The position numbers and the translations under genes were made by a program. This document shows, piece by piece, positions 1-18,435 of a DNA stretch of 18,435 nt. Under the pieces are notes generated by a model, which had not been told where the DNA came from, did not search any database, and worked only from the letters and a program-made list of their open reading frames with translations. The stretch covers positions 1-18,435 of the forward strand of contig CAKRRG010000054.1 of NCBI GenBank assembly GCA_934394545.1. Direction: 5' to 3'. This stretch comes from an uncultured Blautia sp. GTDB taxonomy: Bacteria; Bacillota; Clostridia; Lachnospirales; Lachnospiraceae. Position 1 is the stretch's first letter, and each line of letters opens with the position of its first letter.

Positions 1-15
1 AGAAGGAGAGGTAAA

Positions 16-741: not shown

Positions 742-751
742 TTTATGTTTA

Positions 752-793
752 TACAAAAATGGAGCTGCTTAGAAACGCAGCTCCATTTTTGTA
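752..793. terminator. Bidirectional intrinsic terminator between nagB and the histidine kinase gene
   Basis: A perfect 17-bp inverted repeat (752-768 with 777-793) has an 8-nt loop. The core is GGAGCTGC/GCAGCTCC, flanked by A5 on the left arm and T5 on the right, so it works as a terminator in both directions. It ends nagB from the left and the kinase gene from the right. The kinase stop codon (769-771) lies in the loop, so the last codons of that gene form one arm of the hairpin. Confidence 0.93.
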
Positions 794-2789: not shown

Positions 2790-2816
2790 TTCCAGTCGCT
2801 CCTCCCACATCTTGCT

Positions 2817-2873
2817 AAGCAAGTCCCCACCCACTGCTTATTGCTTTTCGCAACCCCAGCAGGGAACTTGCTT
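2817..2873 (-). promoter_or_regulatory. Long hairpin between the phosphate symporter and regulator genes
   Basis: Inverted repeat with 12-nt arms: AAGCAAGTCCCC (2817-2828) and GGGAACTTGCTT (2862-2873), one G-U wobble in the minus-strand RNA. Nested inside are a CUGCU/AGCAG stem and an UUGC-GAAAA-GCAA tip. It lies about 50 nt after the symporter stop codon and directly before the regulator ribosome binding site. No U-tract follows on the minus strand, so it does not look like an ordinary terminator. A processing or stability element, or a control of regulator translation, is more likely. Confidence 0.55.
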
Positions 2874-2922
2874 GATTCGGTTAAAATCATTTTTTTCAGT
2901 AAAAATCAGACAAAAAAGGCTG

Positions 2923-4692: not shown

Positions 4693-4752
4693 TACCTTTC
4701 CTCTCCTTTTTATCCTTTTCTTTGTTTGTTAAGTTCTTTTGTTTCTGTATCC

Positions 4753-4807
4753 AATATAGGGGGACTATGTAAAATCTCTTGTGAGAGGAATGTTAAATCT
4801 ATGTAAA
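4753..4807 (-). promoter_or_regulatory. Phosphate-type promoter: four TTTACAT-like direct repeats plus -10 box
   Basis: Read on the minus strand, four 7-mers follow one another: TTTACAT (near 4802-4808), TTAACAT (near 4791-4797), CTCACAA (near 4779-4785) and TTTACAT (near 4767-4773). Start-to-start spacing is 11, 11 and 12 bp, one helical turn each. A -10-like TATATT (4753-4758) lies 9 nt after the last repeat, and no separate consensus -35 is present. This is the arrangement of PhoB/PhoP-activated promoters, in which tandem repeats replace the -35 box. It drives the Na+/phosphate symporter and perhaps the two-component genes behind it. Confidence 0.72.
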
Positions 4808-4861
4808 ATACTTTACAATTGGTGGTTTTTTAACAAATACAGCAAGTCCATTGACAGGTTA

Positions 4862-4900
4862 TGTAAAGTAAAATGTAAAATTGATATTTTGAAATGTAAA
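4862..4900. repeat. Second cluster of TGTAAA repeats
   Basis: Three more TGTAAA copies occur on the plus strand at 4862, 4874 and 4895 (spacing 12 and 21 bp), in the same orientation as the copies at 4768 and 4802. TTTACA (4812) and TTAACA (4830), in the opposite orientation, lie between the two clusters. The cluster sits between the greA stop codon and the symporter promoter. It may be a distal regulator-binding site; AT-rich chance similarity is the alternative. Confidence 0.4.
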
Positions 4901-4920
4901 ATTTCCATACAGAACTTTTT

Positions 4921-5427
4921 CTAAAAGCCTCGGATTTCTTCCTCTTCGGAATGGGTCTTGTCAATGGAACGGATTTCCAAGAAATAACTGTAATTGTCAT
5001 TTACCTTTACTTCTACCCGGTCACCGACCTTGTGCCCCTTCAGTGCCATACCAATAGGGGAATCAATGCTGATCCGGTTCTCCATGGAATTTCCTCGTAT
5101 AGAGGTAACAAGTTTGTATTTCTCAAGCTCGTCATCTTCTTCGAAATAAACTTCCACAATATCATCCATTCCCACTTCATCGTTTCTGGAATTGTCGGAA
5201 ACGATAGTAGCTGTTTTCAGCATGTTCTCCAGATAACGGATACGGCTTTCATTCTGATTTTTGTGCCGCTTTGCTGCATAATATTCAAAATTTTCGCTTA
5301 AATCTCCCTGCGCTCTGGCTTCCTTCACTGCCTCAATGGCTTCCTTACGGATAACAAGCTTGCGATGCTCAATTTCCTGCTCAATTTTTTCCACATCTTT
5401 CTTGGTAAGCTTCTCTCTCATTACCAT
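4921..5427 (-). CDS. greA: GreA-type transcription elongation factor
   Basis: Cytosolic factor that enters the secondary channel of RNA polymerase and stimulates cleavage of backtracked RNA. The 168-aa protein has the N-terminal coiled coil (about 5-75) with the catalytic tip ARAQGDLSENFEYYAAK; D42 and E45 match the acidic pair of E. coli GreA. The C-terminal FKBP-like domain (about 85-157) keeps the IS-SPIGMALKGHKVGDRVEV core. An acidic tail (SEEEEIRGF) makes it about ten residues longer than the usual 158. Two start codons are possible, M1 and M3, at 4 and 10 nt from GAGGAG; M3 may be the real one. It begins 12 bp after the stop codon of the GTPase-nuclease gene and almost surely shares its transcript. 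It may be a second greA paralogue in this genome. No clear terminator follows. Confidence 0.92.
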   Translation of the reverse strand: MVMREKLTKKDVEKIEQEIEHRKLVIRKEAIEAVKEARAQGDLSENFEYYAAKRHKNQNESRIRYLENMLKTATIVSDNSRNDEVGMDDIVEVYFEEDDELEKYKLVTSIRGNSMENRISIDSPIGMALKGHKVGDRVEVKVNDNYSYFLEIRSIDKTHSEEEEIRGF

Positions 5428-5439
5428 ACATCTCCTCTT

Positions 5440-8187
5440 TTATAATTTCTTCTTTCCAAGACGGACCTCTTCCATCAGTCTGGCCGTTTCTGCATCTGCG
5501 TGGTCAAAAAGATAGGTGCGGCTGGACTGACGGTGCTGATGCCATTCCTGACGAAGCTGCTTTCTTGTCTCTTCAATCTCCTCTTTCAGTCCCTTTGCAG
5601 AAATACGGCTGGCGCCTTGTCCCATAATGATGATCTGTTCCAGACCATCAGAGGTTGCCACTGTTACCTGATGCTGTCTGCCGATTTTGTGAACGGTTTT
5701 CTCTATATACTGGTCAGCAGTTTCTGCTTCCTTTGTGTAAACCACATGAATATTGTGATAGGTAAGGACTTCTTCCTGATGGCCTTCCACTTTATATGCA
5801 TCAAAAACCAGAATCAGTGTACATTTCTTATATCCCTGGTAATTGCTGAGAATGTCCATCAATTTTGTCTGCGCAGCACGGACATCCCCATCTGCCAGTT
5901 CCTTCAGTTCCGGCCATGCAAAAATAATATTATAGCCATCCACAAGAAGGTACTCTTCCTGGTCACGTTTCCCGGAAACAGTTCTTTCGGAATAAGATGG
6001 AGCGCTTACCACCTTTTTATAAGAGGACACCCGGTCTCGTTTTACCGGACCAAAGGTGCGCTCGAAAATCTCCTGAAGCTCTTTATCGTCCTCGTAACTG
6101 CCCTGGTAAGCAGATTTCGGCGGCTGATAGCCGGAAAACTTTCCCTTTGATTCTGTACTGTCTTCCCCTTCACTGCCCCAACTGTCTTCCCCTTCGGAAT
6201 TCTCCGTAAGCTCTTCTGCAATCCCCGAATCCAGGTGCATATAATCTTCCACTTCGTACCAGGGAACCACAAATCCTGCTCCATGGGCACAGAATACAGA
6301 GCCTGTCGGATTCTCCAGATCCCTTTCGGAATCGTATCCAAGCTGCTCCACGATTTCCTCCTGATTTTTGCAAGGTTCATAGCCCTTCAGGCTGCAGAAC
6401 AGTCTTCCCATTCCTCTTGTATAGGAAATCACATCCTTCTGGTAATCACGCATAGCCGAAACAGGAGCCTTGCCCTTAAGAATCGCAGTCATATCCTCAT
6501 TTTCCGGCGGCAGCATAGTGCCCTGCATTTTCTGAATATCTGTCATAGCGCGGCCAACACAGTCAACCGGCACTTCCAGCCGGAATTCATAATAGGGCTC
6601 AAGCAGAACATTCTGTGCTTTTTTCAATCCCTGGCGAACTGCCCTGTAGGTAGCCTGACGGAAATCACCGCCCTCTGTGTGCTTCAGATGGGCACGACCG
6701 GTCAGCAATGTGATCTGCATATCCGTAACCGGCGATCCGGTCAGCACACCTCTGTGTTCCTTTTCCTCAAGATGGGTAAGGATCAGCCTCTGCCAGTTCC
6801 GGTCCAGCACATCCTCACTGCAAGCTGTAAAAAACTGAAGACCGCTTCCAGGCTCTCCTGGTTCCAGAAGGAGATGAACCTCCGCATAATGGCGCAGTGG
6901 CTCAAAATGTCCCACACCTTCCACCGGTGCAGCAATTGTTTCCTTATATACAATATTTCCGGCTCCGAAATCCACAGCCACATGAAAACGCTCCCAGATC
7001 AGCCGTTTCAGAATCTCGATCTGTACATCTCCCATAAGCATAGCGTGAATTTCTCCCAGCTGTTCATCCCATAAAATGTGTAGCTGAGGATCTTCCTCTT
7101 CCAGTTCCTTCAGCTTCTTTAACATCTGATGCACATCACAGCCATCCGGCAAAATAATCTGATAGTTTAAGACTGGCTCCAGCACGGGCATATTGGAATT
7201 CTCCGTCACCCCAAGTCCCTGTCCCGGAAAAGTATGGACAAGTCCAGTCACCGCGCACACAGTTCCTGCTGGTGCCTCTTTGGCCAATTCAAACTTTGCA
7301 CCGGAATAGATCCGGATCTGATCTGCTTTTTCTTCCCAGATTTCGTCTCCTGCTGCCACATTTCCCCGGCTAGTGGTAAGAAGCTCTTTTACCTTCAGGG
7401 TTCCCCCTGTTATTTTCATATAGGAAAGACGGTTTCCCTGATCATCTCTGGCAATCTTATAAACCTTTGCACCAAAAGCCTCCGGATAGACGGGGCATCT
7501 TGTATACGTGTCCAGCCCAAGGATCAATTCTTCCACGCCCTGCATTTTCAGCGCAGAACCGAAATAACAGGGAAAAACCTTCCTTTCAGCGATCAGATCC
7601 ATAATTTCTTTTTCTGACACTTCCCCTGTCTCCAGATATTTTTCCAGAAGATCTTCCTCGCACATTGCAAGACTCTCCCAAAATTCTTCTGAGAAAAAAA
7701 ATTTTATGCAGTTCTCATTTAATCTCTTTTTCAGCTCAGCAAGAAGTGCCTCCTGATTGGTTCCATCCTGGTCCATTTTATTCACAAAAATAAAAACCGG
7801 AACCTTATACCGCTCCAGCAGTTTCCATAAGGTCACAGTATGCCCCTGCACGCCATCCGCTCCATTGATCAAAAGTACTGCATAATCAAGGACCTGCAGC
7901 GTACGCTCCATCTCTGCCGAGAAATCCACATGTCCCGGTGTATCCAGAAGCGTAACCCTTGTCTGTGGGAACTCCAGCACAGCCTGTTTGGAAAAAATAG
8001 TGATCCCACGCTCTCTTTCCAGCGGAGAGGTATCCAGATATGCATCTTTGTGATCCACTCTTCCCGGCTTACGGATTTTTCCGCTTAAATATAAAAGTGC
8101 TTCTGACAATGTAGTTTTTCCTGCATCTACATGAGCCAGAAGCCCCATACAAATGTTTTTCTTTATTTTCTCTGACTGTTCACTCAC
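5440..8187 (-). CDS. TetM/EF-G-like ribosomal GTPase fused to a YacP/Rae1-like NYN ribonuclease domain
   Basis: The 915-aa protein has two parts. Residues about 10-610 align along the whole TetM/TetO family: G1 AHVDAGKTT (18-26), G2 RGITI (60-64), G3 DTPGH (82-86), G4 NKMD (136-139), G5 GSALK (210-214), then the EF-G-like domains. The domain IV tip reads LKHTEGGDFR (501-510) where TetM has YSPVSTPADFR, so the tetracycline-displacing loop is not conserved. Residues about 655-745 form an acidic and serine-rich linker with a duplicated SEGEDS. Residues about 746-880 match B. subtilis YacP/Rae1: LLVDGYNIIFAWPEL, LVFDAYKV, TKEAETADQYIEK, VATSDGLEQ, GQGASRISA. The acidic residues D750, D796, D825 and D847 are the presumed metal site. 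Rae1 cleaves mRNA in the ribosomal A site, so a GTPase that docks there is a sensible partner. The start is GTG, with GAGGAGG 7 nt upstream. greA follows. Confidence 0.9.
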   Translation of the reverse strand: MSEQSEKIKKNICMGLLAHVDAGKTTLSEALLYLSGKIRKPGRVDHKDAYLDTSPLERERGITIFSKQAVLEFPQTRVTLLDTPGHVDFSAEMERTLQVLDYAVLLINGADGVQGHTVTLWKLLERYKVPVFIFVNKMDQDGTNQEALLAELKKRLNENCIKFFFSEEFWESLAMCEEDLLEKYLETGEVSEKEIMDLIAERKVFPCYFGSALKMQGVEELILGLDTYTRCPVYPEAFGAKVYKIARDDQGNRLSYMKITGGTLKVKELLTTSRGNVAAGDEIWEEKADQIRIYSGAKFELAKEAPAGTVCAVTGLVHTFPGQGLGVTENSNMPVLEPVLNYQIILPDGCDVHQMLKKLKELEEEDPQLHILWDEQLGEIHAMLMGDVQIEILKRLIWERFHVAVDFGAGNIVYKETIAAPVEGVGHFEPLRHYAEVHLLLEPGEPGSGLQFFTACSEDVLDRNWQRLILTHLEEKEHRGVLTGSPVTDMQITLLTGRAHLKHTEGGDFRQATYRAVRQGLKKAQNVLLEPYYEFRLEVPVDCVGRAMTDIQKMQGTMLPPENEDMTAILKGKAPVSAMRDYQKDVISYTRGMGRLFCSLKGYEPCKNQEEIVEQLGYDSERDLENPTGSVFCAHGAGFVVPWYEVEDYMHLDSGIAEELTENSEGEDSWGSEGEDSTESKGKFSGYQPPKSAYQGSYEDDKELQEIFERTFGPVKRDRVSSYKKVVSAPSYSERTVSGKRDQEEYLLVDGYNIIFAWPELKELADGDVRAAQTKLMDILSNYQGYKKCTLILVFDAYKVEGHQEEVLTYHNIHVVYTKEAETADQYIEKTVHKIGRQHQVTVATSDGLEQIIIMGQGASRISAKGLKEEIEETRKQLRQEWHQHRQSSRTYLFDHADAETARLMEEVRLGKKKL

Positions 8188-8223
8188 GCAAACGCCTCCT
8201 CATTGGAAAATCATCACTTTTTA

Positions 8224-8232
8224 AGTATAGCA
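8224..8232 (-). promoter_or_regulatory. Extended -10 promoter of the GTPase-nuclease/greA operon
   Basis: The minus strand reads TGCTATACT, an extended -10 box (TGn plus TATACT), about 37 bp before the GTG start. The expected -35 position carries only TCGACT, which fits an extended -10 promoter. It is the best candidate for driving both genes of the operon. Confidence 0.6.
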
Positions 8233-8343
8233 CAACCTCCGTTATCAGTCGAGACACTGCGTCTGAAATTTACCTGCACATCCACCTATTTTATGTGGAA
8301 CGAATATGCAATACTTTTATTTTGATTGTAAAATTATTTTATC

Positions 8344-8371
8344 TTTACAATATTTGATAGCATGATATAAT
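8344..8371 (+). promoter_or_regulatory. Promoter of the alcohol/aldehyde dehydrogenase operon
   Basis: TTTACA (8344-8349), a 16-bp spacer and a consensus TATAAT (8366-8371) lie about 57 bp before the ADH start codon. The promoter is divergent from that of the GTPase-nuclease operon; the 240-bp gap between the two genes otherwise holds no gene I can support. Confidence 0.65.
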
Positions 8372-8427
8372 GCTTTTTATGAAACACGATACAGATATAA
8401 CGATCCACCAGAAAGTGAGAAACTGAT

Positions 8428-9648
8428 ATGAAACCCATAAAAAAAATATACTGCAGGATTTTTCAGAACGTTTTTAAATTTGCTCTTCCATTTCTTCCTT
8501 ACCGAAATCCAGAAATTATCGGAAGCCTGAAGGCTGTTCCTGATGTACTAAAAAAGAAAAAATGCGAAAACGTATTGATCATCACAGATGCCGGAATCCA
8601 CAAGCTGGGTCTGACACAGCGCCTGGAAAAGGCATTGACAGACAGCCGTATTTCTTATATCCTTTATGACAAAACAGTGGCAAATCCTACTACAGAAAAT
8701 GTGGCAGAAGCTCTTGAGCTTTATCACCAAAATAACTGTAACGCCATCATCGGCTTCGGTGGCGGTTCCAGTATGGATTGTGCCAAAGCGGTAGGTGCCA
8801 GAGTGGCCAAGCCACACCAGTCTCTTGCAAAGATGAAGGGAATCCTGAAGGTGCATAAGCGGCTTCCCCTGCTCCTCGCAGTTCCCACTACAGCCGGAAC
8901 AGGAAGCGAAACCACTTTAGCCGCTGTCATTGTTGACTCAGAAACCAGATATAAATACGCCATCAATGATTTTCCTCTGATTCCGCGTTACGCAGTTCTG
9001 GATCCGAAGGTCACTCTAAGCCTTCCTCCATTTATCACTGCTACAACCGGTATGGATGCGCTCACACATGCAGTGGAAGCATACATTGGAAATTCCACCA
9101 CACCAGGTACCAGAAAGAATGCCCTGGACGCTGTACAGCTGATTTTCAACAATCTGGATACAGCCTACACGGACGGCACTAATAAAGAAGCCCGCCAAAA
9201 CATGCTTCGGGCCTCCTATTTCGCAGGCTGTGCTTTTACAAAATCCTACGTAGGCTATGTTCACGCTGTAGCCCATTCCCTGGGAGGACAGTATAACGTT
9301 CCTCATGGACTTGCCAATGCCATACTGCTTCCCCATGTTCTTGAGTCCTATGGAAAAACCATTTATAAAAAGCTGGCTGCGCTTTCTGTTGCCGCAGGTA
9401 TTGCCACCTGTGAAACACCTGTAGAAGAAGCAGCACTGCGTTTTATTCAGGAAATCAAGGATATGAAGACACGTTTTGGAATCGGCGATACCATCCCCCA
9501 GATCAGAGAAGAAGACATTCCCAAGTTGTCCCATTATGCGGACAAAGAGGCAAATCCTCTTTATCCAGTTCCGATATTGATGGATGCCCATGAGCTGGAA
9601 AAATTTTACTATATGCTAATACCGGCAGAAGAAACCTCCGTACAATAA
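8428..9648 (+). CDS. Iron-containing alcohol dehydrogenase
   Basis: NAD(P)-dependent, Fe2+-type alcohol dehydrogenase (group III, FucO/YqhD superfamily), interconverting an alcohol and its aldehyde in the cytosol; 406 aa, about the usual length. The nucleotide-binding IIGFGGGSSMDCAK lies at 107-120, followed by VPTTAGTGSETT (152-163). The metal ligands expected from FucO are all present: D210 and H214 in TGMDALTHAVEAY, H279 in VHAVAHSLGG and H293 in VPHGLANA; H283 is the usual catalytic histidine. The start is an ATG with only a weak GTGAG ribosome binding site. The aldehyde dehydrogenase gene follows after 24 bp in the same operon, so the pair could oxidise an alcohol to the acid, or the ADH could reduce aldehydes. 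The physiological substrate is not readable from the sequence. Confidence 0.93.
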   Translation: MKPIKKIYCRIFQNVFKFALPFLPYRNPEIIGSLKAVPDVLKKKKCENVLIITDAGIHKLGLTQRLEKALTDSRISYILYDKTVANPTTENVAEALELYHQNNCNAIIGFGGGSSMDCAKAVGARVAKPHQSLAKMKGILKVHKRLPLLLAVPTTAGTGSETTLAAVIVDSETRYKYAINDFPLIPRYAVLDPKVTLSLPPFITATTGMDALTHAVEAYIGNSTTPGTRKNALDAVQLIFNNLDTAYTDGTNKEARQNMLRASYFAGCAFTKSYVGYVHAVAHSLGGQYNVPHGLANAILLPHVLESYGKTIYKKLAALSVAAGIATCETPVEEAALRFIQEIKDMKTRFGIGDTIPQIREEDIPKLSHYADKEANPLYPVPILMDAHELEKFYYMLIPAEETSVQ

Positions 9649-9672
9649 ATCAAAATCAGAAAGGATTTTTCC

Positions 9673-11052
9673 ATGACACAGGAAGCAATTCAGGAAATCA
9701 TCCGCAAACAGCGGAAATATTTTTATACAGGTGCAACCCTGAGCATTGATTTTCGTATCAATGCCCTGAAAAAGCTGCAAGCCTCCATTCAGGCTCACCA
9801 GGAACAGATTAATGCTGCCCTGAAGGCAGACCTTGGAAAAAGCAGCTTCGAGAGCTACATGTGTGAATCCGGCCTTGTTCTCAGTGAGATCACCTACATG
9901 CTGAAGCACATTCGTTCTCTTTCCGAAGAAAAAACAGTACATACGCCACTTGCCCAGTTTCATTCCAGAAGCTACCGGAAGCCTTCTCCATACGGCGTCA
10001 CTTTGCTCATGAGTCCATGGAACTATCCGTTCCTCCTCACCTTCGATCCGTTGGTAGATGCAATTGCCGCCGGAAATACTGCCGTTGTAAAGCCCAGTGC
10101 CTACTCTCCTGCCACCGGTAATATTATCTGTGAAATCATCCGCGAATGCTTTCCGGAAGAGTATGTAGCCATTGTCATGGGAGGACGGCAGGAAAATGCC
10201 TGTCTTCTTCAGGAGCATTTTGACTATATCTTTTTCACCGGCAGCCAGGCTGTTGGTAAGGAAGTAATGCGTCACGCCAGCGAACATCTCACTCCGGTTA
10301 CTCTGGAGCTTGGAGGGAAAAGCCCCTGCATCGTAGACAAATCTGCAGATATCAAGCTTGCAGCCAGACGTATTGTATTTGGAAAATATCTGAATTGCGG
10401 TCAGACTTGTGTGGCTCCTGATTATATCTACTGCCACAAAGACGTAAAGGATGAACTTTTGAAGCAGATTCAGAAGCAGATTCAAAAGCAATTTGGAAAA
10501 GTGCCTCTTGATAATAAAAATTATGGAAAAATCATTAATGAAAAGCATTTTAACCGTATCCAAAATTTAATCGATCCTGCCAAGGTTATCTGTGGCGGCA
10601 CTGTCCGTCCTGAAACTTTGCAGATCGAACCTACTGTAATGGCAGATGTAACCTTTGAGGATGCCATCATGCAGGAAGAAATTTTTGGTCCGGTACTTCC
10701 GGTACTCACTTTTGATTCCATTGAAGAAGTGATCCAGAAGGTGAACTCCATGGCGCATCCCCTTGCTCTCTACATTTTTTCCCAAAGCAAAGCTGTGTGT
10801 GAAGAAGTTACTTCCAAATGTGGCTTTGGTGGAGGATGTATGAATGATGTGGTTATCCACCTTGCTACCAGCGAAATGCCTTTCGGCGGCTTTGGTGAAA
10901 GCGGCATGGGCAGTTACCACGGTGAAAAGGGATTCGAGACATTTACTCATTATAAGAGCATTGTAGATAAAAAGACCTGGATTGATCTGCCTATGAGATA
11001 TCAGCCTTACAGAAAAATTTATGAAAAGCTGATCCATGTTTTTTTGAAATAA
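9673..11052 (+). CDS. Aldehyde dehydrogenase, class 3-like
   Basis: NAD(P)+-dependent aldehyde dehydrogenase that oxidises aldehydes to carboxylic acids; 459 aa, the short length of the class 3/YwdH-type group. Motifs in order: MSPWNYPF with N117, AAGNTAVVKPS (132-142) for cofactor binding, FFTGS (187-191), LELGGKSP with the general base E212, and NCGQTCVAPDYI with the catalytic C246. Later come EIFGPVLPV and the conserved NDVVIHLATSEMPFGGFGESGMG near the C-terminus, typical of class 3 enzymes. The C-terminus ends with a basic and hydrophobic stretch (KIYEKLIHVFLK) that might help membrane association, as in fatty aldehyde dehydrogenases; that part is inference. It has an AGAAAGGA ribosome binding site and shares an operon with the upstream ADH. 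A hairpin terminator follows. Confidence 0.93.
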   Translation: MTQEAIQEIIRKQRKYFYTGATLSIDFRINALKKLQASIQAHQEQINAALKADLGKSSFESYMCESGLVLSEITYMLKHIRSLSEEKTVHTPLAQFHSRSYRKPSPYGVTLLMSPWNYPFLLTFDPLVDAIAAGNTAVVKPSAYSPATGNIICEIIRECFPEEYVAIVMGGRQENACLLQEHFDYIFFTGSQAVGKEVMRHASEHLTPVTLELGGKSPCIVDKSADIKLAARRIVFGKYLNCGQTCVAPDYIYCHKDVKDELLKQIQKQIQKQFGKVPLDNKNYGKIINEKHFNRIQNLIDPAKVICGGTVRPETLQIEPTVMADVTFEDAIMQEEIFGPVLPVLTFDSIEEVIQKVNSMAHPLALYIFSQSKAVCEEVTSKCGFGGGCMNDVVIHLATSEMPFGGFGESGMGSYHGEKGFETFTHYKSIVDKKTWIDLPMRYQPYRKIYEKLIHVFLK

Positions 11053-11069
11053 AATCCTGATAACAATTT

Positions 11070-11105
11070 CAAGCCACCCTCTGAACAAACTCAGCGGGTG
11101 GCTTG
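11070..11105. terminator. Hairpin terminator between convergent genes
   Basis: CAAGCCACCC (11070-11079) and GGGTGGCTTG (11096-11105) form a perfect 10-bp stem, with an inner CTGA/TCAG extension. It lies between the aldehyde dehydrogenase gene (+) and the membrane protein gene (-), 8 bp from the stop codon of the latter. Neither strand has a long U-tract, so termination may be partial, but the position fits a shared terminator. Confidence 0.72.
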
Positions 11106-11113
11106 CTGTCATC

Positions 11114-11779
11114 TTAAGCAACTTCTTTTTTCATAGCCTTGTAACCAATCACTACTGTCCATACATAAGCACAGGTTTTCGGAATCATCAGCATACCGAT
11201 CATGGGAACAACATCAGCCCAAAGCACAACCGGAATATAGAATGCGAAGCTCAGCACGATTGTCAGCCACATCCAACGGAAAGATTGATCTGCGCTTTTT
11301 TTTGCACTTTGATAAAACAGAACAATGATAAGTAATCCCAGCAACGCAAACGGAATGTTTCGATAAATTCCCCAGGAAAGCGGAGCATCTGCACGAAGCC
11401 ACTTATTCTGCGGCATCATACACAGAATTATTCTCAATCCTGCAAGAATATAGACAACTGCTGTAGTTTCCTTGTGTCCCTTGACCTGGTAACGTTCACG
11501 CCAAACATGATAAAGCACAACATAGAAAATTGTCATAGTAATAGAAGTGATCCATTTACCTAAACCAAGGGGTACCGTGTAATTCTCAAGACCGGTCGTA
11601 CAAAGGGCCAGTGCACGTGGAACCAGATGGAACGCATCGCCACTGCCTAAAAGAACTGCCATAATTCCAAACATAGTGAACTGGCGATTTCCTTTGCTTT
11701 TTCGAATCATGAAAACACCAATCGTGATTACTGAAATCAGATATACTGCATCAAATAAAGTTTCTACAATTGCCTGCAT
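11114..11779 (-). CDS. Seven-helix membrane protein of unknown function
   Basis: I do not recognise a characterised family. The 221-aa protein is hydrophobic, with about seven membrane segments: near 5-24, 35-53, 74-94, 107-121, 136-157, 170-190 and 193-213. The N-terminus is short and the C-terminus ends with basic residues (YKAMKKEVA), which by the positive-inside rule would be cytoplasmic. It has no signal peptide cleavage site, transporter signature or nucleotide-binding motif that I can see. A GDAFHLVPR motif at about 47-55 holds charged residues within or beside a membrane segment. The ATG has AAGGAAA upstream. The gene is preceded by an operator identical in pattern to that of the adjacent tetR gene, so it is probably repressed by that regulator and induced by the regulator's ligand. 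A role in stress or small-molecule response is inference only. Confidence 0.8.
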   Translation of the reverse strand: MQAIVETLFDAVYLISVITIGVFMIRKSKGNRQFTMFGIMAVLLGSGDAFHLVPRALALCTTGLENYTVPLGLGKWITSITMTIFYVVLYHVWRERYQVKGHKETTAVVYILAGLRIILCMMPQNKWLRADAPLSWGIYRNIPFALLGLLIIVLFYQSAKKSADQSFRWMWLTIVLSFAFYIPVVLWADVVPMIGMLMIPKTCAYVWTVVIGYKAMKKEVA

Positions 11780-11833
11780 AATAACATTTCCTTTCTTATT
11801 TTATTTTTTACTCTGTTTTTTATTTTCCGTTAC

Positions 11834-11848
11834 ATGAACGCTGTTCAT
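11834..11848. promoter_or_regulatory. TetR-type operator upstream of the membrane protein gene
   Basis: ATGAAC-GCT-GTTCAT is a perfect 15-bp palindrome with a 3-nt spacer, 54 bp before the start codon. The same half-sites and spacer length occur in front of the neighbouring tetR gene (12531-12545). A second palindrome, CCCACAT-AAA-ATGTGGG, lies just upstream at 11866-11882. No clear -35/-10 pair could be assigned, but the position fits a promoter-proximal operator. Confidence 0.75.
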
Positions 11849-11891
11849 TTTGCTTTTTAAATTTTCCCACATAAAATGTGGGAGAATCTTA

Positions 11892-11927
11892 GAAAGTGTT
11901 TCAAAAAGAGATTGATTTTTCAAACAC
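11892..11927 (-). terminator. Possible weak terminator after tetR
   Basis: Read on the minus strand, GTGTTTGAAAAA and TTTTTGAAACAC form a 12-bp AT-rich stem with one central mismatch, followed by TTTC. It starts 4 bp after the tetR stop codon. The low GC content makes it a weak terminator, so some transcription may run into the membrane protein gene. Confidence 0.45.
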
Positions 11928-11930
11928 GCT

Positions 11931-12488
11931 TTAATATATTGTTTTCTTTATAAGCATCAATACAGAGGACGGATCATAATCCTGGCGGACCATTGCCACT
12001 AAAATCAGGGAAAACAGAATATCTGCAAACTGTTTCTCTGTAAATTCCTGGTCAAATACATCGGAACGGATTTTGGGATCGTTCTTCAGCACTTCGCATA
12101 AACCATTAAGGATATGTTCCCAGGTCTGCAGCATTCTCTTTTTTCCATCGTTTTTTTCATTCCGCATAAAGCCTAGGGAATGCAACGAGAAAAAGCCTGG
12201 AAATTGCTTATTGCCATATTCCAACCGTTCAAAAATCCAGGAAATACAACTTGCAGCATCATGAAAGACTTGTTCTTCCTCAGGGTGAAAAAAGATTTCC
12301 CGCCAAACGCTCTCGATTGTGTCTCCCAGCAAAGCGGACTTGGATTCATAATAATTATAAATCGTACCTGCTGAAACAGAGCACCTGGAAGCAACTGCCC
12401 GTATACTTACAGCATTCCATCCATTTTCTCTGATCAGTTCCCGGCTGGCAGCCAATATATCCTCCTTTGAAGTAGCAAGATGATTCAC
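11931..12488 (-). CDS. TetR/AcrR-family transcriptional repressor
   Basis: One-domain DNA-binding repressor with a ligand-binding C-terminal half; 185 aa, typical for the family. The N-terminal helices ILAASRELIRENGWNAVSIR lead into the helix-turn-helix at about 28-47 (IRAVASRCSVSAGTIYNYYESK), whose GTIYNYYESK stretch is the family signature. Residues about 60-185 form the variable helical ligand and dimer domain and give no hint of the ligand. The start is GTG, with GGAGG 7 nt upstream. The gene has a near-consensus promoter with the operator palindrome directly after the -10 box, so it should repress itself. The same palindrome precedes the downstream membrane protein gene on the same strand, which is the most likely target. 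Family assignment is secure; ligand and function are unknown. Confidence 0.92.
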   Translation of the reverse strand: MNHLATSKEDILAASRELIRENGWNAVSIRAVASRCSVSAGTIYNYYESKSALLGDTIESVWREIFFHPEEEQVFHDAASCISWIFERLEYGNKQFPGFFSLHSLGFMRNEKNDGKKRMLQTWEHILNGLCEVLKNDPKIRSDVFDQEFTEKQFADILFSLILVAMVRQDYDPSSVLMLIKKTIY

Positions 12489-12530
12489 AATTTCACCTCC
12501 TGATATCTTACGTATAGATTCTTATCCTTT

Positions 12531-12580
12531 ATGAACACCGTTCATTTTGAAAGTATACGCTGTTCACTTTGATTTGTCAA
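12531..12580 (-). promoter_or_regulatory. tetR promoter with autoregulatory operator
   Basis: Minus strand: TTGACA (12575-12580), 17-bp spacer, TATACT (12552-12557), close to a perfect sigma-A promoter. The palindrome ATGAAC-ACC-GTTCAT (12531-12545) lies just after the -10 box over the transcription start. A degenerate half-site, GTGAACAGCG, sits in the spacer. Repressor bound here would block transcription, giving autoregulation. Confidence 0.82.
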
Positions 12581-12610
12581 GTACCTCTAAAAAAAATTTC
12601 AGACATAAGA

Positions 12611-12644
12611 AAAACCCCGGAAAATCAAAGACTTCCGAGGTTTT
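12611..12644. terminator. Terminator at the left border of the AT-rich island
   Basis: AAAACCCCGGAA (12611-12622) and TTCCGAGGTTTT (12633-12644) form a 12-bp stem; the single mismatch is a G-U pair in the minus-strand RNA, and TTTTTC follows on that strand. It would stop transcription arriving from the peptide cluster before the tetR promoter. A plus-strand reading is also possible. Confidence 0.7.
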
Positions 12645-13003
12645 AATAATTTTCTGTATTCGATTGAAATTATCGTTTGCTGAACTGCGTTTACTATGGA
12701 CAGCTGATCTGAATACACCGCTCAATCTTCTATGGCTATTATTTGCCTCCAATCAGGAAGTAGGCTGTCCCGTCTACTTTTACTTTGCTTACGCAGGCCT
12801 CTCTCCTATATATATTACCACTTACGCTTAGCATTTTCGTCAATTTGAATAAACTACTTTTTTGCTATTGTAGTACTTTCTCCAAGAATGGTGGCTTATC
12901 TCCTTGCTTTCTTGGACATCTTTTAGGAGGCAGACGCCCTTGCCCATCCGTTTTTATTTCTAAAATCCCCTTCTCTTTTCAATAGACGAATTTTTTTAAC
13001 ACA
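12645..13003. other. 359-bp gap without a recognised gene; possible mobile-element remnant
   Basis: No gene of known type could be supported. The minus strand holds a 31-codon frame (12739-12834) ending CVSKVKVDGTAYFLIGGK, and another open stretch near 12870-12985 ending DKPPFLEKVLQ. Neither has a good ribosome binding site. A 7-bp inverted repeat, CCAAGAA/TTCTTGG (12882-12888 with 12909-12915), could form a stem-loop. By eye the base composition is less AT-rich than the peptide cluster. Because it lies between the cluster and the tetR promoter, it may be the end or a decayed remnant of the mobile element that carried the island. Confidence 0.35.
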
Positions 13004-14053
13004 CTAACGATATTGTTCTTTAAACATTTTTAAGTCTTCGAAAGAATAATTTTTCCAAAGCACCGGACACCCACCATAGCATTTTTCTAAATATTTACAT
13101 GCTCTACATTCATCTGAAGGCAAGCGACTTATCTTATCAATTACGTCTTTATACGATTTCATACTTTTTAACCTTTCAAAATCTTTAGCAGTAACAAAAT
13201 CTTCACCTAATTTTCCAATTTTATTATTAAAATACATATCGCATGGAAGCAGGTTCAAATTAGTATCAAATGTAACTGCATTTTTCTTATGAATCTGGCA
13301 TGGTGATGCCATTCTACCCTCTAACGCAGATAATTGTTTCTCTGAATATACACACATTGGAAAACTATATTCAATCCACCAATCATCTGTAATGCTATTT
13401 AATCGATCCATTTGAGATATAAATACATCAATTAATTCTAATGGATTATGATTTTCTAAATAGGTTTTATTTTTATCAAAATTCCTCCCATTATCTATAA
13501 GAAATGTAAATGAAAACTGTCTAGCTCCATTTTTTAAAGCATTCTCAACTGAATCACAAAGAAGCAGAACACTTTCCGGCGTCACAACCATAGAACATGT
13601 AAACTCTATTTGTAAAGATGAAAGATTTCTAATTGCTTCCTGTTGCTGTAAATAACCGTCACATCCAGTTGTTTCTATCCATTCTTTTGAATCATGTCCT
13701 TTCATTGAAACATCTATATAACTTAAGCCACGCTCGATTAACTTTTTGCAAAACTGTAAATCTCTAAGCATTGTTCCATTTGATGCAACAGCAGTTATAA
13801 TAGGGATTTCCTGTTCTTTTATATATAACAGTATATCCAATAGATGTGGATACAAGAGAGGTTCCCCTCCAGTAAAAAATATATATTTCACTTTTGCATC
13901 ACAACAAAAATCAACTATCTTCTTCAGATTATCAAAGCTCACCATATCACTTCTGCAATAGCCTGCATCTTTTGCGAAACAGAAATTGCAACGCAAGTTA
14001 CAGTCTCGCGTCAAAATAATGGAGCATTGTTTAATTAGTTCTTTTTCCAACAC
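13004..14053 (-). CDS. Radical SAM/SPASM enzyme, second maturase of the peptide cluster
   Basis: Iron-sulfur enzyme that should make a 5'-deoxyadenosyl radical to modify the precursor peptide; 349 aa. The N-terminal cluster motif is CNLRCNFC (C18, C22, C25), followed by the SAM-binding TGGEP (61-65). The C-terminal SPASM-type auxiliary cluster region has C252, C271 and the CX2CX5CX3C block C316/C319/C325/C329 (CRACKYLEKCYGGC). The last cysteine of the classical seven-cysteine motif is not seen, because the protein ends soon after. Unlike the first maturase it has no PqqD-like domain, so it may rely on its partner for peptide recognition or install a different modification. The start is GTG, with GGGAGG 8 nt upstream, 44 bp after the UvrA-like gene. 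The exact chemistry cannot be assigned. Confidence 0.87.
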   Translation of the reverse strand: MLEKELIKQCSIILTRDCNLRCNFCFAKDAGYCRSDMVSFDNLKKIVDFCCDAKVKYIFFTGGEPLLYPHLLDILLYIKEQEIPIITAVASNGTMLRDLQFCKKLIERGLSYIDVSMKGHDSKEWIETTGCDGYLQQQEAIRNLSSLQIEFTCSMVVTPESVLLLCDSVENALKNGARQFSFTFLIDNGRNFDKNKTYLENHNPLELIDVFISQMDRLNSITDDWWIEYSFPMCVYSEKQLSALEGRMASPCQIHKKNAVTFDTNLNLLPCDMYFNNKIGKLGEDFVTAKDFERLKSMKSYKDVIDKISRLPSDECRACKYLEKCYGGCPVLWKNYSFEDLKMFKEQYR

Positions 14054-14097
14054 GATACCAACCTCCCTATTATTTGTGCCTTATATATTCCTAAATG

Positions 14098-16428
14098 TTA
14101 TTTTTCCAAATTATACAATGAAGATTCCTTCTTTGAAAAAACATCTTTAGTTTTCCCTTGTGCAACAATTTTTCCGCCTGCCTTTCCACCATATATACCG
14201 AAATCAATAACATGATCAGCGACTTTTGCAATAAATTCAATATTATGCTCAATAATCAAAATTGTCTCACCTTTGTTTTGTAATGAAAAAAGCACTTTTA
14301 TAAATTTTTCAATATCAATTTCATTCAATCCTGATGTAGGCTCATCAAGAATGTAAAGATTTTGCCCTCGAGAAGACACCCCCAAGGCTTTTGCTAATTT
14401 TATACGCTGAGCCTCTCCACCAGACAGATTCATAGACATTTGTCCTAATGTCAGATACCCAAGTCCTAACTCAACCATACTATTTAATACGGAATACACC
14501 TTTTTCGTATTCTTAAAAATTTCAATAATATCTGATACAGGAGTATCGAGTACATCTAGGATTGTTTTGTCAGCATACGTTACTGACAATATATCATCAT
14601 TAAATCTTTTACCATGGCATTCTGGACAAGTAATATATGAACTTGGAAGATAATTAAGATCAATTTTCTTAAGTCCAGTTCCCTGGCAACACTCACATCT
14701 TCCACCTTTAACATTCATACTAAACATAGAAGGTGATAATTTAAGTTTTTTGGCTGTGCTTGTCTTAGAAAACAAATTTCTTATCTCATCAAACACTTCC
14801 AAATAAGAAACCACAGTTGATCGGGGTGTTCTTCCAATAGGTGCTTGGTTTACTTGAATAATTCTTTTTATCGAACTTCCACCTTTTACATCTCCATATT
14901 TTTTTGCGGTACTTTTTTCAAGACTCTCTGCAACTGCTGTCGTTAAAGTAGATTTTCCAGATCCAGAAACGCCTGTAATACACGTAATACCACCTATCGG
15001 AAATCTTGCATCTTGCTTAACGATATTGCGAAAACAAATATTATTAACTTCAAAATATTCTTTAAAATTTAGTGATTTTTTAAAATCAATCAGCATTGGT
15101 AATGTGTTTTGATTTTCTCCCTCACACATTAAGTATCCACCATTTGGTCCACCTTCTGGTCCTAATTCAATTTTATAATCAGCAGAAGCAATATATTGTT
15201 TGTTATGCTCAATTGCAATAACCGAATTTCCACGTTGAACAAGTTTTTGGGTTGCACCTATGATTCTAGTAATGTCACGGTGATGAAGTCCTTTGCAAGG
15301 TTCATCCAAAATATATATTAGTCCCTTTAAGGAGCAAGTGAGCTGTGTTGCAATTCTGACTCGCTGTCTTTCACCTCCAGAAAGCGAAGGAACTGTCCTG
15401 TTCAGGCTCAAGTATCCGACATTTAATTCAATCAGTGCGTCCAACTTTTTAATAATACTATCACATAATTGAGTTACTAAATCCTGCTTATTTAATGCAA
15501 TTTTTTCATCATTTAAATTATTAATCCAAGAATGTAACGCAGTTAATTCCAAACTTTCAACTTCATTATAGTTTAATCCATTCACAGTATACGCTAATGC
15601 TTGTTTTCCTAATTTTGCACCATTACAAACATGGCATGCTATCGTTGTTGTATATTTTGAATATGCTGCTGATTGCGAAGAAGGATCTACACTCGCAATT
15701 TGATCTTTTAACAGCGGAATAACGCCTTGAAGAGATACTAAATGCTGTTTTCTCCGTTTACCTTCCTTGTATGAAATTTTCACTCGTAACACTTCTTCTG
15801 TGTATAATAAATTATAGACTTCATCTTTTGTTAATTGTGAAAATTTCTTATTGATATCAATACCATAGTAATCGCACAATGCCTCAAGAGATTTCTGTTC
15901 TTTACCTTCGGCAGGACCTTTAAAATAAAGTATTGCGCCCTCTCTAAGAGTTTTTTCAACATCCGGAACTAGTAAATCCTCTGATACTATCAATTCCACT
16001 CCAAGTCCACTACAATTTGGACAAAAGGATTTTGGATTATTGAAAGAGAATATATTTTCTGGAACTTCATTACTAGATTCACTATTAATCAATGAAAATA
16101 ATGCACGCAAATAATATGAAATCTCTGTAATAGTTCCAATCGTAGATCTTGGATTTACATTATAATAATTCTGCGAAATATTTAATGCTGGTCGAAGATT
16201 CTCTATCATCCTCACTTTAGGCTTATTCATCAATTTCTGATTGTAGATGTTGCCAGTCATTCCTTCAAGAAATCCTCTTTGACTTTCTGCATATATTGTA
16301 TCGAATACCAATGAAGATTTTCCACAACCAGAACATCCCGTTACGCATGTGAATGCATTGAATGGTATTTCTAAATCCAAATGTTTTAAATTATTTTCAT
16401 GAGCATCCTTTATCACAATTTTTTCCAA
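14098..16428 (-). CDS. UvrA-like ABC ATPase without the UvrB-binding domain (DrrC/UvrA2 type)
   Basis: Soluble, DNA-binding double ABC ATPase; 776 aa against about 940 for housekeeping UvrA. First half: Walker A GCSGCGKSS (31-39), ABC signature LSGGERQR (349-356), Walker B LIYILDEP (370-377). Second half: GVSGSGKST (486-494), LSGGEAQR (668-675), LYILDEPTSG (691-700). Both zinc modules are kept: C136/C139 with C265/C268, and C578/C581 with C601/C604. After GTITEISYYLRALFSLI the chain passes almost directly into FSFNNPKSFCPNC, so the UvrB-binding insertion is missing. That is the shape of UvrA2 and of DrrC-type proteins, which protect antibiotic producers from their own DNA-binding drugs. Lying between two peptide maturases, it is best read as an immunity gene. 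The start is probably TTG, with GGGAG 12 nt upstream. Confidence 0.9.
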   Translation of the reverse strand: MEKIVIKDAHENNLKHLDLEIPFNAFTCVTGCSGCGKSSLVFDTIYAESQRGFLEGMTGNIYNQKLMNKPKVRMIENLRPALNISQNYYNVNPRSTIGTITEISYYLRALFSLINSESSNEVPENIFSFNNPKSFCPNCSGLGVELIVSEDLLVPDVEKTLREGAILYFKGPAEGKEQKSLEALCDYYGIDINKKFSQLTKDEVYNLLYTEEVLRVKISYKEGKRRKQHLVSLQGVIPLLKDQIASVDPSSQSAAYSKYTTTIACHVCNGAKLGKQALAYTVNGLNYNEVESLELTALHSWINNLNDEKIALNKQDLVTQLCDSIIKKLDALIELNVGYLSLNRTVPSLSGGERQRVRIATQLTCSLKGLIYILDEPCKGLHHRDITRIIGATQKLVQRGNSVIAIEHNKQYIASADYKIELGPEGGPNGGYLMCEGENQNTLPMLIDFKKSLNFKEYFEVNNICFRNIVKQDARFPIGGITCITGVSGSGKSTLTTAVAESLEKSTAKKYGDVKGGSSIKRIIQVNQAPIGRTPRSTVVSYLEVFDEIRNLFSKTSTAKKLKLSPSMFSMNVKGGRCECCQGTGLKKIDLNYLPSSYITCPECHGKRFNDDILSVTYADKTILDVLDTPVSDIIEIFKNTKKVYSVLNSMVELGLGYLTLGQMSMNLSGGEAQRIKLAKALGVSSRGQNLYILDEPTSGLNEIDIEKFIKVLFSLQNKGETILIIEHNIEFIAKVADHVIDFGIYGGKAGGKIVAQGKTKDVFSKKESSLYNLEK

Positions 16429-16493
16429 AATAATTACACACTCCCTTCCCGAATCAAAATCTCAATGAATTATTTTTATATCTTGTTGTAAAA

Positions 16494-17930
16494 TTATTCT
16501 TCACCATAATACGCATCTACTTTTGTATGGATAATTTTGGCAACAGAACAATGGAAATTTTGAATTTTAAAAGCATCTCCATCTTGATTTTCATTCGAAT
16601 TACTCATCATGCAAACAGTACAATAACCTCGATCCGCACAACTTACACATTTAGGAAACTCTTTGCGCTTTATTTGACGTAAATACTTAATTTTTTTAGA
16701 ATTTTCCCAAATATCCTGAAGTGACTGGCTTTCTAAATTTCCCAACACATTAGTCTGCCAGCCAACACAAGAATAAACATCTCCGAATACAGAGACACAA
16801 AAACTATAACGACAAATCGAACATATTGGATCGGTCTCTGTAAAGTTCTCTTTTTCCTTAGCAATTTCACGTAATTGCTCAGCATATCCTTCACCAAGTT
16901 CTAAATCAATAGTTCTTTCTATTTCTTCCAACGAAAGCCTATTAGATAAGTTTCTTCCCGTATGGTCATATGACGCAAAAATTACTGGCTCAACAGCTAC
17001 CGCAATTTTATGTTTCCTTCCCCACTTAATTACATCTACAAAACTTTCTCGATTTTGTTTCATTACAGGACAAGAAATCTGCAACGGTATACCTTCAGCT
17101 GAAAGTTTCTCTAATCCACTAATTGTTTTATCAAGACTTCCACTTAACTTAGTAATAGAATCATGTACTTCTGCATCCATAGAATAAATAGAGGTCTGGA
17201 CAGAAAGAAGCGGATTTTTTTTCATTTCTGCAATTATTTCATCATTTAAGACAGTTAAATTAGAAAGTACATTTACCGACAAATCCATTTTTCTACATTT
17301 TTCAAGGAATCCTATTATATCTTTATGTAGTAATGGCTCCCCTCCAGATAATGTCACATGAATAATGTTCATCTTTCTTCCAATTTCAATGATTTTATAA
17401 AAAAGATCACCGTCTATAACACTATTTTTATATTCATGCGGGATATAACAATGAACACAGCGTTCATTACAGGCATTCGCGACTTCAATATGAATACTTC
17501 TAAGAAATTCATTGACTTTAAATATATTTTTTACACAATCATCAGTACTGATTTTAGACATAGATTGTTCCATACCATAATTATTATTTTCTTCCGAAAA
17601 TTTTTTATCCTGGCACTCTTCTGGTGTTTCTCCCACACTTAAATATCCTTCATCCAAAAAATATTGAAAAAAATCTATCGTATCTGCTTTTAACGTCTCG
17701 TTATCAACCCCAATAAAAATCTTAGATAGCTCATCAACAATATCATCAATATGTTTTGGATATTTTTCCAAAACGCTCAACATAACAGCACCACTCTGTG
17801 ATACAAATTTTTCACCACGTATTGGACGATTATCATTGAGCATTCTATACCCAAATTCTGAATTATCCGTTATATATCCATATTCATCATATTGCCTAAA
17901 CAATACATCATCACGTATTTTTATATACAT
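16494..17930 (-). CDS. PqqD-domain radical SAM/SPASM peptide maturase
   Basis: Probable main maturase of the peptide cluster; 478 aa. Residues about 1-100 resemble a PqqD-like RiPP recognition element (SQSGAVMLSVLEKYP, then an IDDIVDELSK helix and a DFFQYFLDEGYL helix), the module that binds leader peptides. A linker of about 40 residues leads to the radical SAM core: CNERCVHC (C154, C158, C161) and LSGGEPL (194-200). The SPASM region has C370/C373/C378 and C388 (CVSVFGDVYSC), then C428/C431/C437/C440 and C461, enough for two auxiliary 4Fe-4S clusters, as in sactipeptide and ranthipeptide thioether synthases. The ATG has GAAGAGG upstream. The precursor gene lies directly upstream, separated by a terminator. 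Thioether formation on the three core cysteines is the leading hypothesis; epimerisation or another C-H modification is possible. Confidence 0.9.
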   Translation of the reverse strand: MYIKIRDDVLFRQYDEYGYITDNSEFGYRMLNDNRPIRGEKFVSQSGAVMLSVLEKYPKHIDDIVDELSKIFIGVDNETLKADTIDFFQYFLDEGYLSVGETPEECQDKKFSEENNNYGMEQSMSKISTDDCVKNIFKVNEFLRSIHIEVANACNERCVHCYIPHEYKNSVIDGDLFYKIIEIGRKMNIIHVTLSGGEPLLHKDIIGFLEKCRKMDLSVNVLSNLTVLNDEIIAEMKKNPLLSVQTSIYSMDAEVHDSITKLSGSLDKTISGLEKLSAEGIPLQISCPVMKQNRESFVDVIKWGRKHKIAVAVEPVIFASYDHTGRNLSNRLSLEEIERTIDLELGEGYAEQLREIAKEKENFTETDPICSICRYSFCVSVFGDVYSCVGWQTNVLGNLESQSLQDIWENSKKIKYLRQIKRKEFPKCVSCADRGYCTVCMMSNSNENQDGDAFKIQNFHCSVAKIIHTKVDAYYGEE

Positions 17931-17973
17931 TGGCTTATTACCTCTTCACTAAACATTAGTTTCAAGCATATAC

Positions 17974-18002
17974 AAAAAAGGACGCAGTAAAACTCTGCGT
18001 CC
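17974..18002 (-). terminator. Intrinsic terminator between the precursor gene and the maturase operon
   Basis: Minus strand: GGACGCAG-AGTTTTA-CTGCGTCC, a perfect 8-bp GC-rich stem with a 7-nt loop, followed by six T residues. It begins 25 nt after the precursor stop codon. Most transcripts should end here and some read through to the maturases, giving an excess of substrate peptide over enzyme, a common plan in RiPP clusters. No second promoter is obvious in the 44 bp between terminator and maturase start. Confidence 0.93.
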
Positions 18003-18027
18003 AGAAATTCTTTGCATATATTGCTTG

Positions 18028-18126
18028 TTAAGCTTTTGAAGAACAAGGTCTTCCACAAGGACCATCACCACATTTCGCAGCATTTACCTTTTCAGCGCTA
18101 ATAATAGTAGGTTTTTTATACTCCAT
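18028..18126 (-). CDS. Small cysteine-containing RiPP precursor peptide (32 aa)
   Basis: Short gene encoding a 32-residue peptide. It starts MEYKKPTIISAEKV, a lysine-rich leader with the KKPxI pattern often seen in leaders bound by PqqD-like domains, and ends with the presumed core CGDGPCGRPCSSKA. Cysteines are at 19, 24 and 28, all in the C-terminal half and spaced by Gly, Asp, Pro, Arg and Ser. The ribosome binding site TAAGGAGGT (18134-18142) is a full match to the anti-Shine-Dalgarno sequence, 7 nt before the ATG, so high translation is expected. A promoter lies about 180 bp upstream, a perfect terminator just after, and two radical SAM maturases follow. Leader and core limits are inferred. 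No double-glycine cleavage site is present. The peptide matches no family that I can name with certainty. Confidence 0.85.
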   Translation of the reverse strand: MEYKKPTIISAEKVNAAKCGDGPCGRPCSSKA

Positions 18127-18142
18127 TCCTTTTACCTCCTTA

Positions 18143-18298
18143 TCTTATAAGTTTTTGCATAAACATTTCGCTTCAAGGATATAATACACCTAAAATACGG
18201 TTCACCACGTCTTGTTATTAAAGGACGTTAAGGCGAAATAGGAATATCCAAATCCGTTATTTTAGCTTTGATTTATTAAAAATATATCCTACTTATTT
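18143..18298 (-). promoter_or_regulatory. Long structured 5' leader of the precursor mRNA
   Basis: About 155 nt lie between the predicted transcription start and the precursor ribosome binding site. Three complementary pairs are visible: ATTTCGC (18165-18171) with GCGAAAT (18233-18239), GGATAT (18177-18182) with ATATCC (18244-18249), and ACGTC (18207-18211) with GACGT (18224-18228). The first two pairs interleave, so they would form a pseudoknot or two alternative folds. No known riboswitch class is recognised. Confidence 0.4.
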
Positions 18299-18305
18299 AG
18301 TTATT

Positions 18306-18334
18306 ATTTTATCACAATCCATGTTAATTTTCAA
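18306..18334 (-). promoter_or_regulatory. Promoter of the peptide cluster
   Basis: Minus strand: TTGAAA (18329-18334), 17-bp spacer, TAAAAT (18306-18311), with TGn directly before the -10 box. It begins only 19 bp after the stop codon of the truncated relaxase and faces the precursor gene. It is the best promoter candidate for the whole cluster. Confidence 0.75.
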
Positions 18335-18352
18335 CATAAAAAATCAGAATAC

Positions 18353-18435
18353 CTATAAACAGACCACAAAGGCATGATTGCCTTTAGTAAAACGCTTTGC
18401 AAATTCTACGCCCAGCCGGTTTGCTTCTTCCGGGG
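18353..18435 (-). pseudogene. Truncated relaxase of a Tn1549-type conjugative element (window-edge fragment)
   Basis: The minus-strand frame entering from the right edge encodes PEEANRLGVEFAKRFTKGNH followed by AFVVCL and a TAG stop. This matches the N-terminal nuclease domain of relaxases from Tn1549-like elements, which I recall continuing after AFVVC with a THxDK and HxHNH region holding the metal-binding histidines. Here the reading frame is lost right after AFVVC, so the metal-binding motif and the rest of the protein are missing. The gene start lies outside the window. The break is followed within 20 bp by the peptide cluster promoter, so it probably marks the insertion point of the cluster. 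Confidence 0.78.

Follow-up and report, generated by a model that had tools for sequence, protein, structure and literature searches.

We have found that a stretch of DNA from an uncultured Blautia sp. (18,435 nucleotides (nt), referred to as a whole as the window) carries at 13004–18334 a conserved block of four genes, which encode a short peptide, a radical SAM enzyme (rSAM1), a UvrA-like ABC ATPase and a second radical SAM enzyme (rSAM2). That the block is a cluster for a ribosomally synthesised and post-translationally modified peptide (RiPP) is well supported. The reading that we favour, and consider about equally likely to be right or wrong, is that of a horizontally acquired radical SAM RiPP operon whose product would act on DNA and whose UvrA-like protein would protect the producer. 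The open reading frame (ORF) listing, together with Pfam and NCBIfam scans, bears out the four minus-strand genes of an earlier preliminary description of this DNA, all at their coordinates:

18028–18126, minus strand: precursor peptide gene, 32 residues, MEYKKPTIISAEKVNAAKCGDGPCGRPCSSKA
16494–17930, minus strand: rSAM1, 478 residues, PqqD-like, radical SAM and SPASM regions, core CNERCVHC (Pfam, NCBIfam)
14098–16428, minus strand: UvrA-like ABC ATPase, 776 residues, TTG start, without the UvrB-binding region, insertion (DNA-binding) domain kept (Pfam, NCBIfam, comparisons)
13004–14053, minus strand: rSAM2, 349 residues, GTG start, core CNLRCNFC, C-terminal SPASM-type cysteines (Pfam, NCBIfam, alignment)

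The precursor and rSAM1 genes are separated by 97 bp, where the preliminary description had 63 bp; the two following gaps are 65 and 44 bp, as it gave them. The AT-richness that it remarked on is seen as a GC content of 31–34% across 13001–18000 against 39–51% across 1–13000.

In GTDB species genomes, 459 relatives of rSAM1 were confirmed, the best 80 of which were taken as loci (numbered L001 and so on; L002 is excluded from the counts). Comparison of 84 loci with the window gives three types of peptide core, A to C, described below. In all 20 loci of type A, the type of the window, the order is precursor, rSAM1, UvrA-like protein and rSAM2. The UvrA-like gene is uninterrupted in 19 of them and rSAM2 is full-length in 19, that of L015 being open only as a 69-residue frame. 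L044, from Eubacterium plexicaudatum, is a decaying copy with a split rSAM1, a UvrA-like gene interrupted by an insertion, and an open precursor and rSAM2. Neither the UvrA-like protein nor rSAM2 was found in the other 64 loci, 46 of which extend at least 4 kb past the rSAM1 start (in L038 there is one weak ABC match of 45 bits); rSAM2 is confined, among the 84 loci compared, to the clade of the window. The tree of rSAM1, calculated from the window and 66 of 79 rSAM1 frames, places type A on a single branch (100/100), the sister of which (98/98) consists of four type B members with the three-cysteine form PCGRPC (L048, L050, L065, on a long branch, and L086). Since type A is one branch with a three-cysteine type B sister, the simplest account is a single gain of the UvrA-like gene and rSAM2. 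Sequence identities of the three proteins are correlated (r = 0.78, 0.65 and 0.70, p = 0.0001, 18 of 21 sets).

The precursor of the window appears to divide into a leader, MEYKKPTIISAEKVNAA, and a core region, KCGDGPCGRPCSSKA, with the core KCGDGPCGRPC. A RiPP-type cluster had been proposed in the preliminary description, which had also asked whether the small gene stays beside the maturases in related genomes. It does: 79 of the 85 sequences (84 loci and the window) have, upstream of rSAM1, a small ORF whose leader is similar. These ORFs were picked by a pattern containing the leader motif, and a search with looser rules gave the same ones; none was found upstream in L036, L049, L052, L059, L063 and L081, two of which (L059 and L063) have fewer than 110 upstream bases. 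The leader consensus resembles M.Y.KP.[VIL], with R or T also found ahead of the P in type B, and it is followed by one of three cores, each with near variants: C-G-x-G-P-C-G-R-P-C in type A (n = 21, window included), C-x-P-N-S-K-P-S-G-R-P-C-N-P-P in type B (n = 30, defined by GRP) and S-Y-A-A-G-C-P ... C-x-x-C-E-R in type C (n = 28).

The precursor ORF and its GRP are conserved in 21/21 type A sequences (20 loci and the window), and the first core cysteine is present in 21/21 of type A and, at the spacing of the pattern used, in 29/30 of type B. Pairwise differences between type A core codons (residues 18–28, 11 members of equal length) number 298 at the third position against 58 at the first and 42 at the second. 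At the level of sequence, this is the pattern of a coding gene with strong amino-acid-level selection on its core, and the ORF is more than a chance one. Ribosome-binding-like stretches precede most of 33 precursors compared, and in the protein database the precursor homologue of L005 has ten close relatives. Neither the window precursor nor any of five others tested matched a Pfam or NCBIfam model. The peptides of the E. coli and Photobacterium plasmids are identical letter for letter. L068 has two different precursor-like ORFs ahead of one rSAM1, one of them with an enlarged cysteine-rich core.

Both enzymes match the radical SAM family PF04055, and rSAM1 alone matches PF13186. The N terminus of rSAM1 holds an RRE-type domain (PqqD, PF05402, at 45–97, 25.3 bits against a cut-off of 23.4), with strands and helices in winged-helix order in the structure model; library scans matched no RRE-type domain in rSAM2. 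Residues C154/C158/C161, C370 and C388 of rSAM1 are invariant in 67 aligned rows and C378, C428, C431, C437 and C440 are kept in at least 90% of them; in rSAM2, C18/C22/C25, C252, C271, C316, C319, C325 and C329 are invariant in 20 aligned sequences. With its RRE-type N terminus, CxxxCxxC motif, SPASM cysteines and a small peptide gene directly upstream, rSAM1 resembles SuiB, CteB and SkfB (RRE with SPASM or twitch), but it is just 14–19% identical to the solved SuiB, 5wgg/5why (CteB) and SkfB. It differs from those systems also in that neither enzyme reaches an NCBIfam cut-off among its best matches (best 25 of 61 for rSAM1, best 25 of 80 for rSAM2) and that the precursors tested have no library family. 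rSAM2 shares with PapB the radical SAM domain and SPASM-type cysteines.

The preliminary description had taken the product to be crosslinked through cysteine. That is not established: the second core cysteine is serine in one of the 21 type A members and the third in another, L014 and L015 being the two variants, and the second is serine in 24/30 of type B. Because core cysteines are replaceable by serine while GRP is kept in 21/21 of type A, crosslinking through cysteine is not the first chemistry to expect. In our judgement it is improbable that the product is an ordinary bacteriocin of the sactipeptide- or ranthipeptide-like kind, with cysteine thioethers, a target other than DNA and an unrelated UvrA-like protein (for example one of general DNA repair). 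Such a bacteriocin would account for the three cysteines of the core and the SPASM-type cysteines of the enzymes, and it fits the thioether-forming enzyme 5wgg, which tops the fold matches of rSAM1 (others tie within 1 Z, and the comparisons for rSAM1 and the UvrA-like protein are re-ranked Foldseek matches, which leaves room for other folds). The best NCBIfam match of rSAM2 among the matches listed is likewise a ranthipeptide maturase, PapB; this match, however, scores 70.6 bits against a cut-off of 340. The replaceable second and third cysteines speak against such a bacteriocin, as do an Asp two residues past the first cysteine in just 14/21 of type A and the UvrA-like gene itself, which, being present in 20/20 and without the UvrB-binding region, is no ordinary repair gene. 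We do not claim membership in the sactipeptide or ranthipeptide class.

The UvrA-like gene is the most informative of the four, since UvrA-like proteins without the UvrB-binding domain are known from intercalator self-resistance. In the protein of the window, the insertion (DNA-binding) domain PF17755 is found at 150–247 and both ATPase modules keep their Walker and signature motifs and zinc-type cysteines in alignment. The UvrB-binding region is absent from the pairwise alignment, where 114→120 of the query faces 135→278 of UvrA, and no insert of that type occurs in 20 aligned members. A separate, longer UvrA frame of 851–1050 residues is present in 7/7 genomes of relatives tested; given this coexistence, the idea that it replaces a repair gene was rejected.

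According to the accessible parts of PMC10413001, the UvrA-like proteins DrrC, Ecm16 and MtrX of DNA-binding-drug clusters lack the UvrB-binding domain and can protect independently of UvrABC, such genes have served as markers in the discovery of a new DNA intercalator, and actinobacterial clusters containing uvrA fall into classes that include RiPPs. The same parts, with those of PMC10192343, describe these proteins as a self-resistance class of DNA-intercalator gene clusters. In the source parts available, the ATPase activity of Ecm16 rose 16-fold with its drug. The preliminary description had not recognised the combination with a UvrA-like protein; the combination is indeed absent from the literature searched, but the description missed that the class itself is known. 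The window protein shares with DrrC, Ecm16 and MtrX the UvrA fold of an ABC ATPase, the retained insertion domain, the loss of the UvrB-binding region, a place in a biosynthetic-type operon and its standing as an extra to a longer genomic UvrA. The known cases, in the source parts available, belong to actinomycete clusters for other drug types, whereas here the UvrA-like protein is found mostly in Clostridia and with a ribosomal peptide. We know of no tie between the UvrA2 of Deinococcus and a peptide cluster.

Three candidate expression signals accompany the operon in the window:

18334–18306, minus strand: promoter-like site TTGAAA-17-TAAAAT, with TG ahead of the second hexamer (10/12 matches)
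18134–18141, minus strand: ribosome binding site aaggaggt of the precursor gene, read from the sequence, 7 nt ahead of the ATG
17980–18002, minus strand: terminator-like hairpin GGACGCAG-7-CTGCGTCC followed by T6, a possible attenuator between the precursor and the enzymes (hairpin scan)

The ribosome binding site that the preliminary description noted is borne out. As for its single promoter, the promoter-like site is present and plausible, one of five with 10/12 matches and the sole one with TG, but the scan gave 32 sites against 27.9 ± 5.0 expected, a total not above chance. Between this site and the precursor gene runs a leader of ~170 nt (18127–18305, minus strand), and Rfam gave nothing at gathering score in 12500–18435.

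The terminator that was described has the most G–C pairs among seven terminator-like sites (1.9 ± 1.3 expected), and all 21 type A gaps between precursor and rSAM1 contain a hairpin followed by a T-rich run. The hairpin score was reached by none of 200 shuffles in 18 of the 21, the exceptions being L014 (4), L021 (3) and L017 (1). Since the search looked for pairing, the stems pair by construction, and their registers are not all shared; by eye, the arms in 13/21 take the form .....CAG / CTG....., in the outer part of which both partners change at the third and fourth pairs, and the hairpin chosen in L021 differs from the rest. Partial termination here would yield more precursor than enzyme. 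A conserved hairpin behind a small ORF is also what attenuation leaders look like, and the ORF might instead be a regulatory leader, or a cysteine-rich metal- or cluster-binding peptide, with the enzymes acting elsewhere. We consider this very improbable: one leader is common to three core types, several phyla and divergent rSAM1s, the core is under strong amino-acid-level selection, and the enzyme next to it carries an RRE-type domain, which the review, in the part available, describes as the precursor-binding domain.

In the favoured reading, that of a DNA-acting RiPP with its own protection, the RRE-type domain of rSAM1 would bind the conserved leader (M.Y.KP.[VI][IL]) and the enzyme would modify residues of the core around C..GRPC, and rSAM2, seen only in the clade of the window, would add a second modification. 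The hairpin after the precursor gene would keep the peptide in excess over the enzymes. After presumed cutting and release, the mature peptide would bind DNA, that of the producer included, and the UvrA-like ATPase would sense peptide-bearing DNA via its insertion domain and strip or displace the peptide without UvrBC, as has been proposed for Ecm16 and DrrC. Action on DNA is suggested by the analogy of the UvrA-like protein with DrrC/Ecm16/MtrX self-resistance; both target and chemistry of the product are conjectural.

Several observations weigh against this reading. The system is known from its genes alone, with no product assigned. The UvrA-like protein scores 562.9 bits to the UvrA of B. 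stearothermophilus against 339.8 to Ecm16, so that, nearer in sequence to canonical UvrA, its descent from the DrrC/Ecm16 lineage is not established. Neighbouring proteins were scanned for 87/92 (A), 94/199 (B) and 57/113 (C), where B denotes loci that are not A and have no amidohydrolase cluster (in L055, L066 and L079, the source of 3 of its 94 proteins, the precursor is of type C). Besides the core genes, no gene cluster is shared by more than 5 of the 20 type A loci, that cluster being integrase-like, and no recurrent exporter or protease was found beside the operon (some contigs end early; best 25 of 82 Pfam families), which is unusual for a secreted antibiotic. Finally, the nearest relatives, of type B, have a similar GRPC peptide and lack a UvrA-like gene, so that a core of this kind need not by itself call for protection of DNA; such protection may be needed only for the rSAM2-modified form.

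That no recurrent exporter or protease was found would be expected of the main rival, in which the modified peptide is not a toxin but stays inside the cell as a partner or cofactor of the UvrA-like ATPase in a DNA-surveillance, anti-phage or regulatory machine. The UvrA-like gene is strictly coupled to the maturases and inherited with them, the core is strongly conserved, and in several genomes the type B cassette, which has no UvrA-like gene, adjoins defence genes; these points agree with the rival as well. We nevertheless think it rather unlikely, since the precedent found for a UvrB-less UvrA in biosynthetic clusters, in the source parts available, is self-resistance, and the neighbours of type A are poorer in PADLOC matches (27 families for 87 proteins against 278 for 94 in the B set, counts that are of redundant models rather than of proteins, the B set holding more large proteins).

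Horizontal acquisition, the other element of the favoured reading, would explain the GC content and the sporadic spread of the operon. It is sporadic in that rSAM2, at E 1e-60, was found in 2/397 genomes of one family (that of G001, the genome of L009), both already known, with no new locus. Among the type A members, L021 sits in a bin assigned to a gammaproteobacterium and L022 in one assigned to an actinobacterium, a placement that suggests transfer of the operon, both being metagenome bins in which misbinning is possible. Seven plasmid records, from E. coli, Salmonella and Photobacterium, carry relatives of rSAM1 with 43–45% identity, and five E. coli plasmid records in PLSDB have a relative of 44.7%; the E. 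coli plasmid copy had no match in 'ecoli_genomes' at megablast sensitivity. An alignment scan of the viral collection gave two rSAM1 relatives among 23 stretches and a single-sequence scan gave none, while phage records searched with the E. coli rSAM1 gave 10 weak radical SAM matches, none covering 80%. The UvrA-like protein is matched by 2174 plasmid records, none with at least 60% identity, and the clade of the window was not seen there. Ahead of the promoter, one frame of the window (18353–18435, minus strand) reads PEEANRLGVEFAKRFTKGNHAFVVCL-stop and by eye resembles a truncated relaxase. Taken with the drop in GC, this piece may point to a mobile element. Compared with the loci by short blast, it gave a single match of 8 residues (E 0.37), and the likeness to a relaxase is tentative.

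The type B loci (L001, L003, L023–L046 and others) carry a two-gene cassette of GRPC precursor and rSAM1 only. Its settings include conjugative plasmids, two viral contigs and the neighbourhood of integrases and defence genes. It adjoins type I methyltransferase and specificity genes in L035, and L036, with a rSAM1 of the type B branch and no precursor ORF found, adjoins SngA/B/C (8e-94 to 6e-271). Eight of 10 hand-picked, mostly large type B neighbours match PADLOC at 1e-20. The cassette may serve as a chemical element in anti-phage defence or in competition. On the E. coli plasmid RCS57TR364_p (L001:5937–11996), a Tn3-family transposase and a recombinase gene precede the precursor and rSAM1, and a degenerate recombinase-like piece follows them by eye; the cassette there is probably transposon cargo. 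In type C (L047–L084), an amidohydrolase-like gene comes after rSAM1 in 22 loci, directly in most, and is a third partner of the shared leader and enzyme chassis. PF04909 was matched by 18/57 type C neighbours scanned, and 8 of the 22 loci have a helix-turn-helix regulator upstream on the opposite strand.

Each half of the operon is of a kind already known, radical SAM RiPPs on one side and UvrA-like self-resistance on the other. The claim that their combination is undescribed holds for the open-access literature searched, where it was not found (PMC9040887 and PMC11205464 do mention UvrA, RiPP and self-resistance, and the atlas of radical SAM RiPPs by Clark and Seyedsayamdost 2022 may hold the family), and no library model scanned names the family, the peptides tested having no curated one. 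Of the preliminary interpretation as a whole, the RiPP cluster stands, cysteine crosslinking is not established, and the known class of the UvrA-like protein had been overlooked.

More tentatively, and in our judgement with less than even odds, the three types may be seen as one unnamed, cross-phylum family of radical SAM RiPPs, in which a single leader and enzyme chassis takes exchangeable partners (UvrA-like protein with rSAM2, amidohydrolase, or none). The UvrA branch would then make the first ribosomal, radical SAM-matured peptide to act on DNA, possibly as a groove binder built on GRP, with a UvrB-less UvrA clearing the DNA of the producer. If true, this would offer a testable route to DNA-acting ribosomal peptides in gut anaerobes, and would extend UvrA-type self-resistance past the drug clusters of actinomycetes. 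It would also provide matched sets of enzymes and substrates, three core types on one leader, for determining how a UvrB-less UvrA distinguishes drug-bound from bare DNA.

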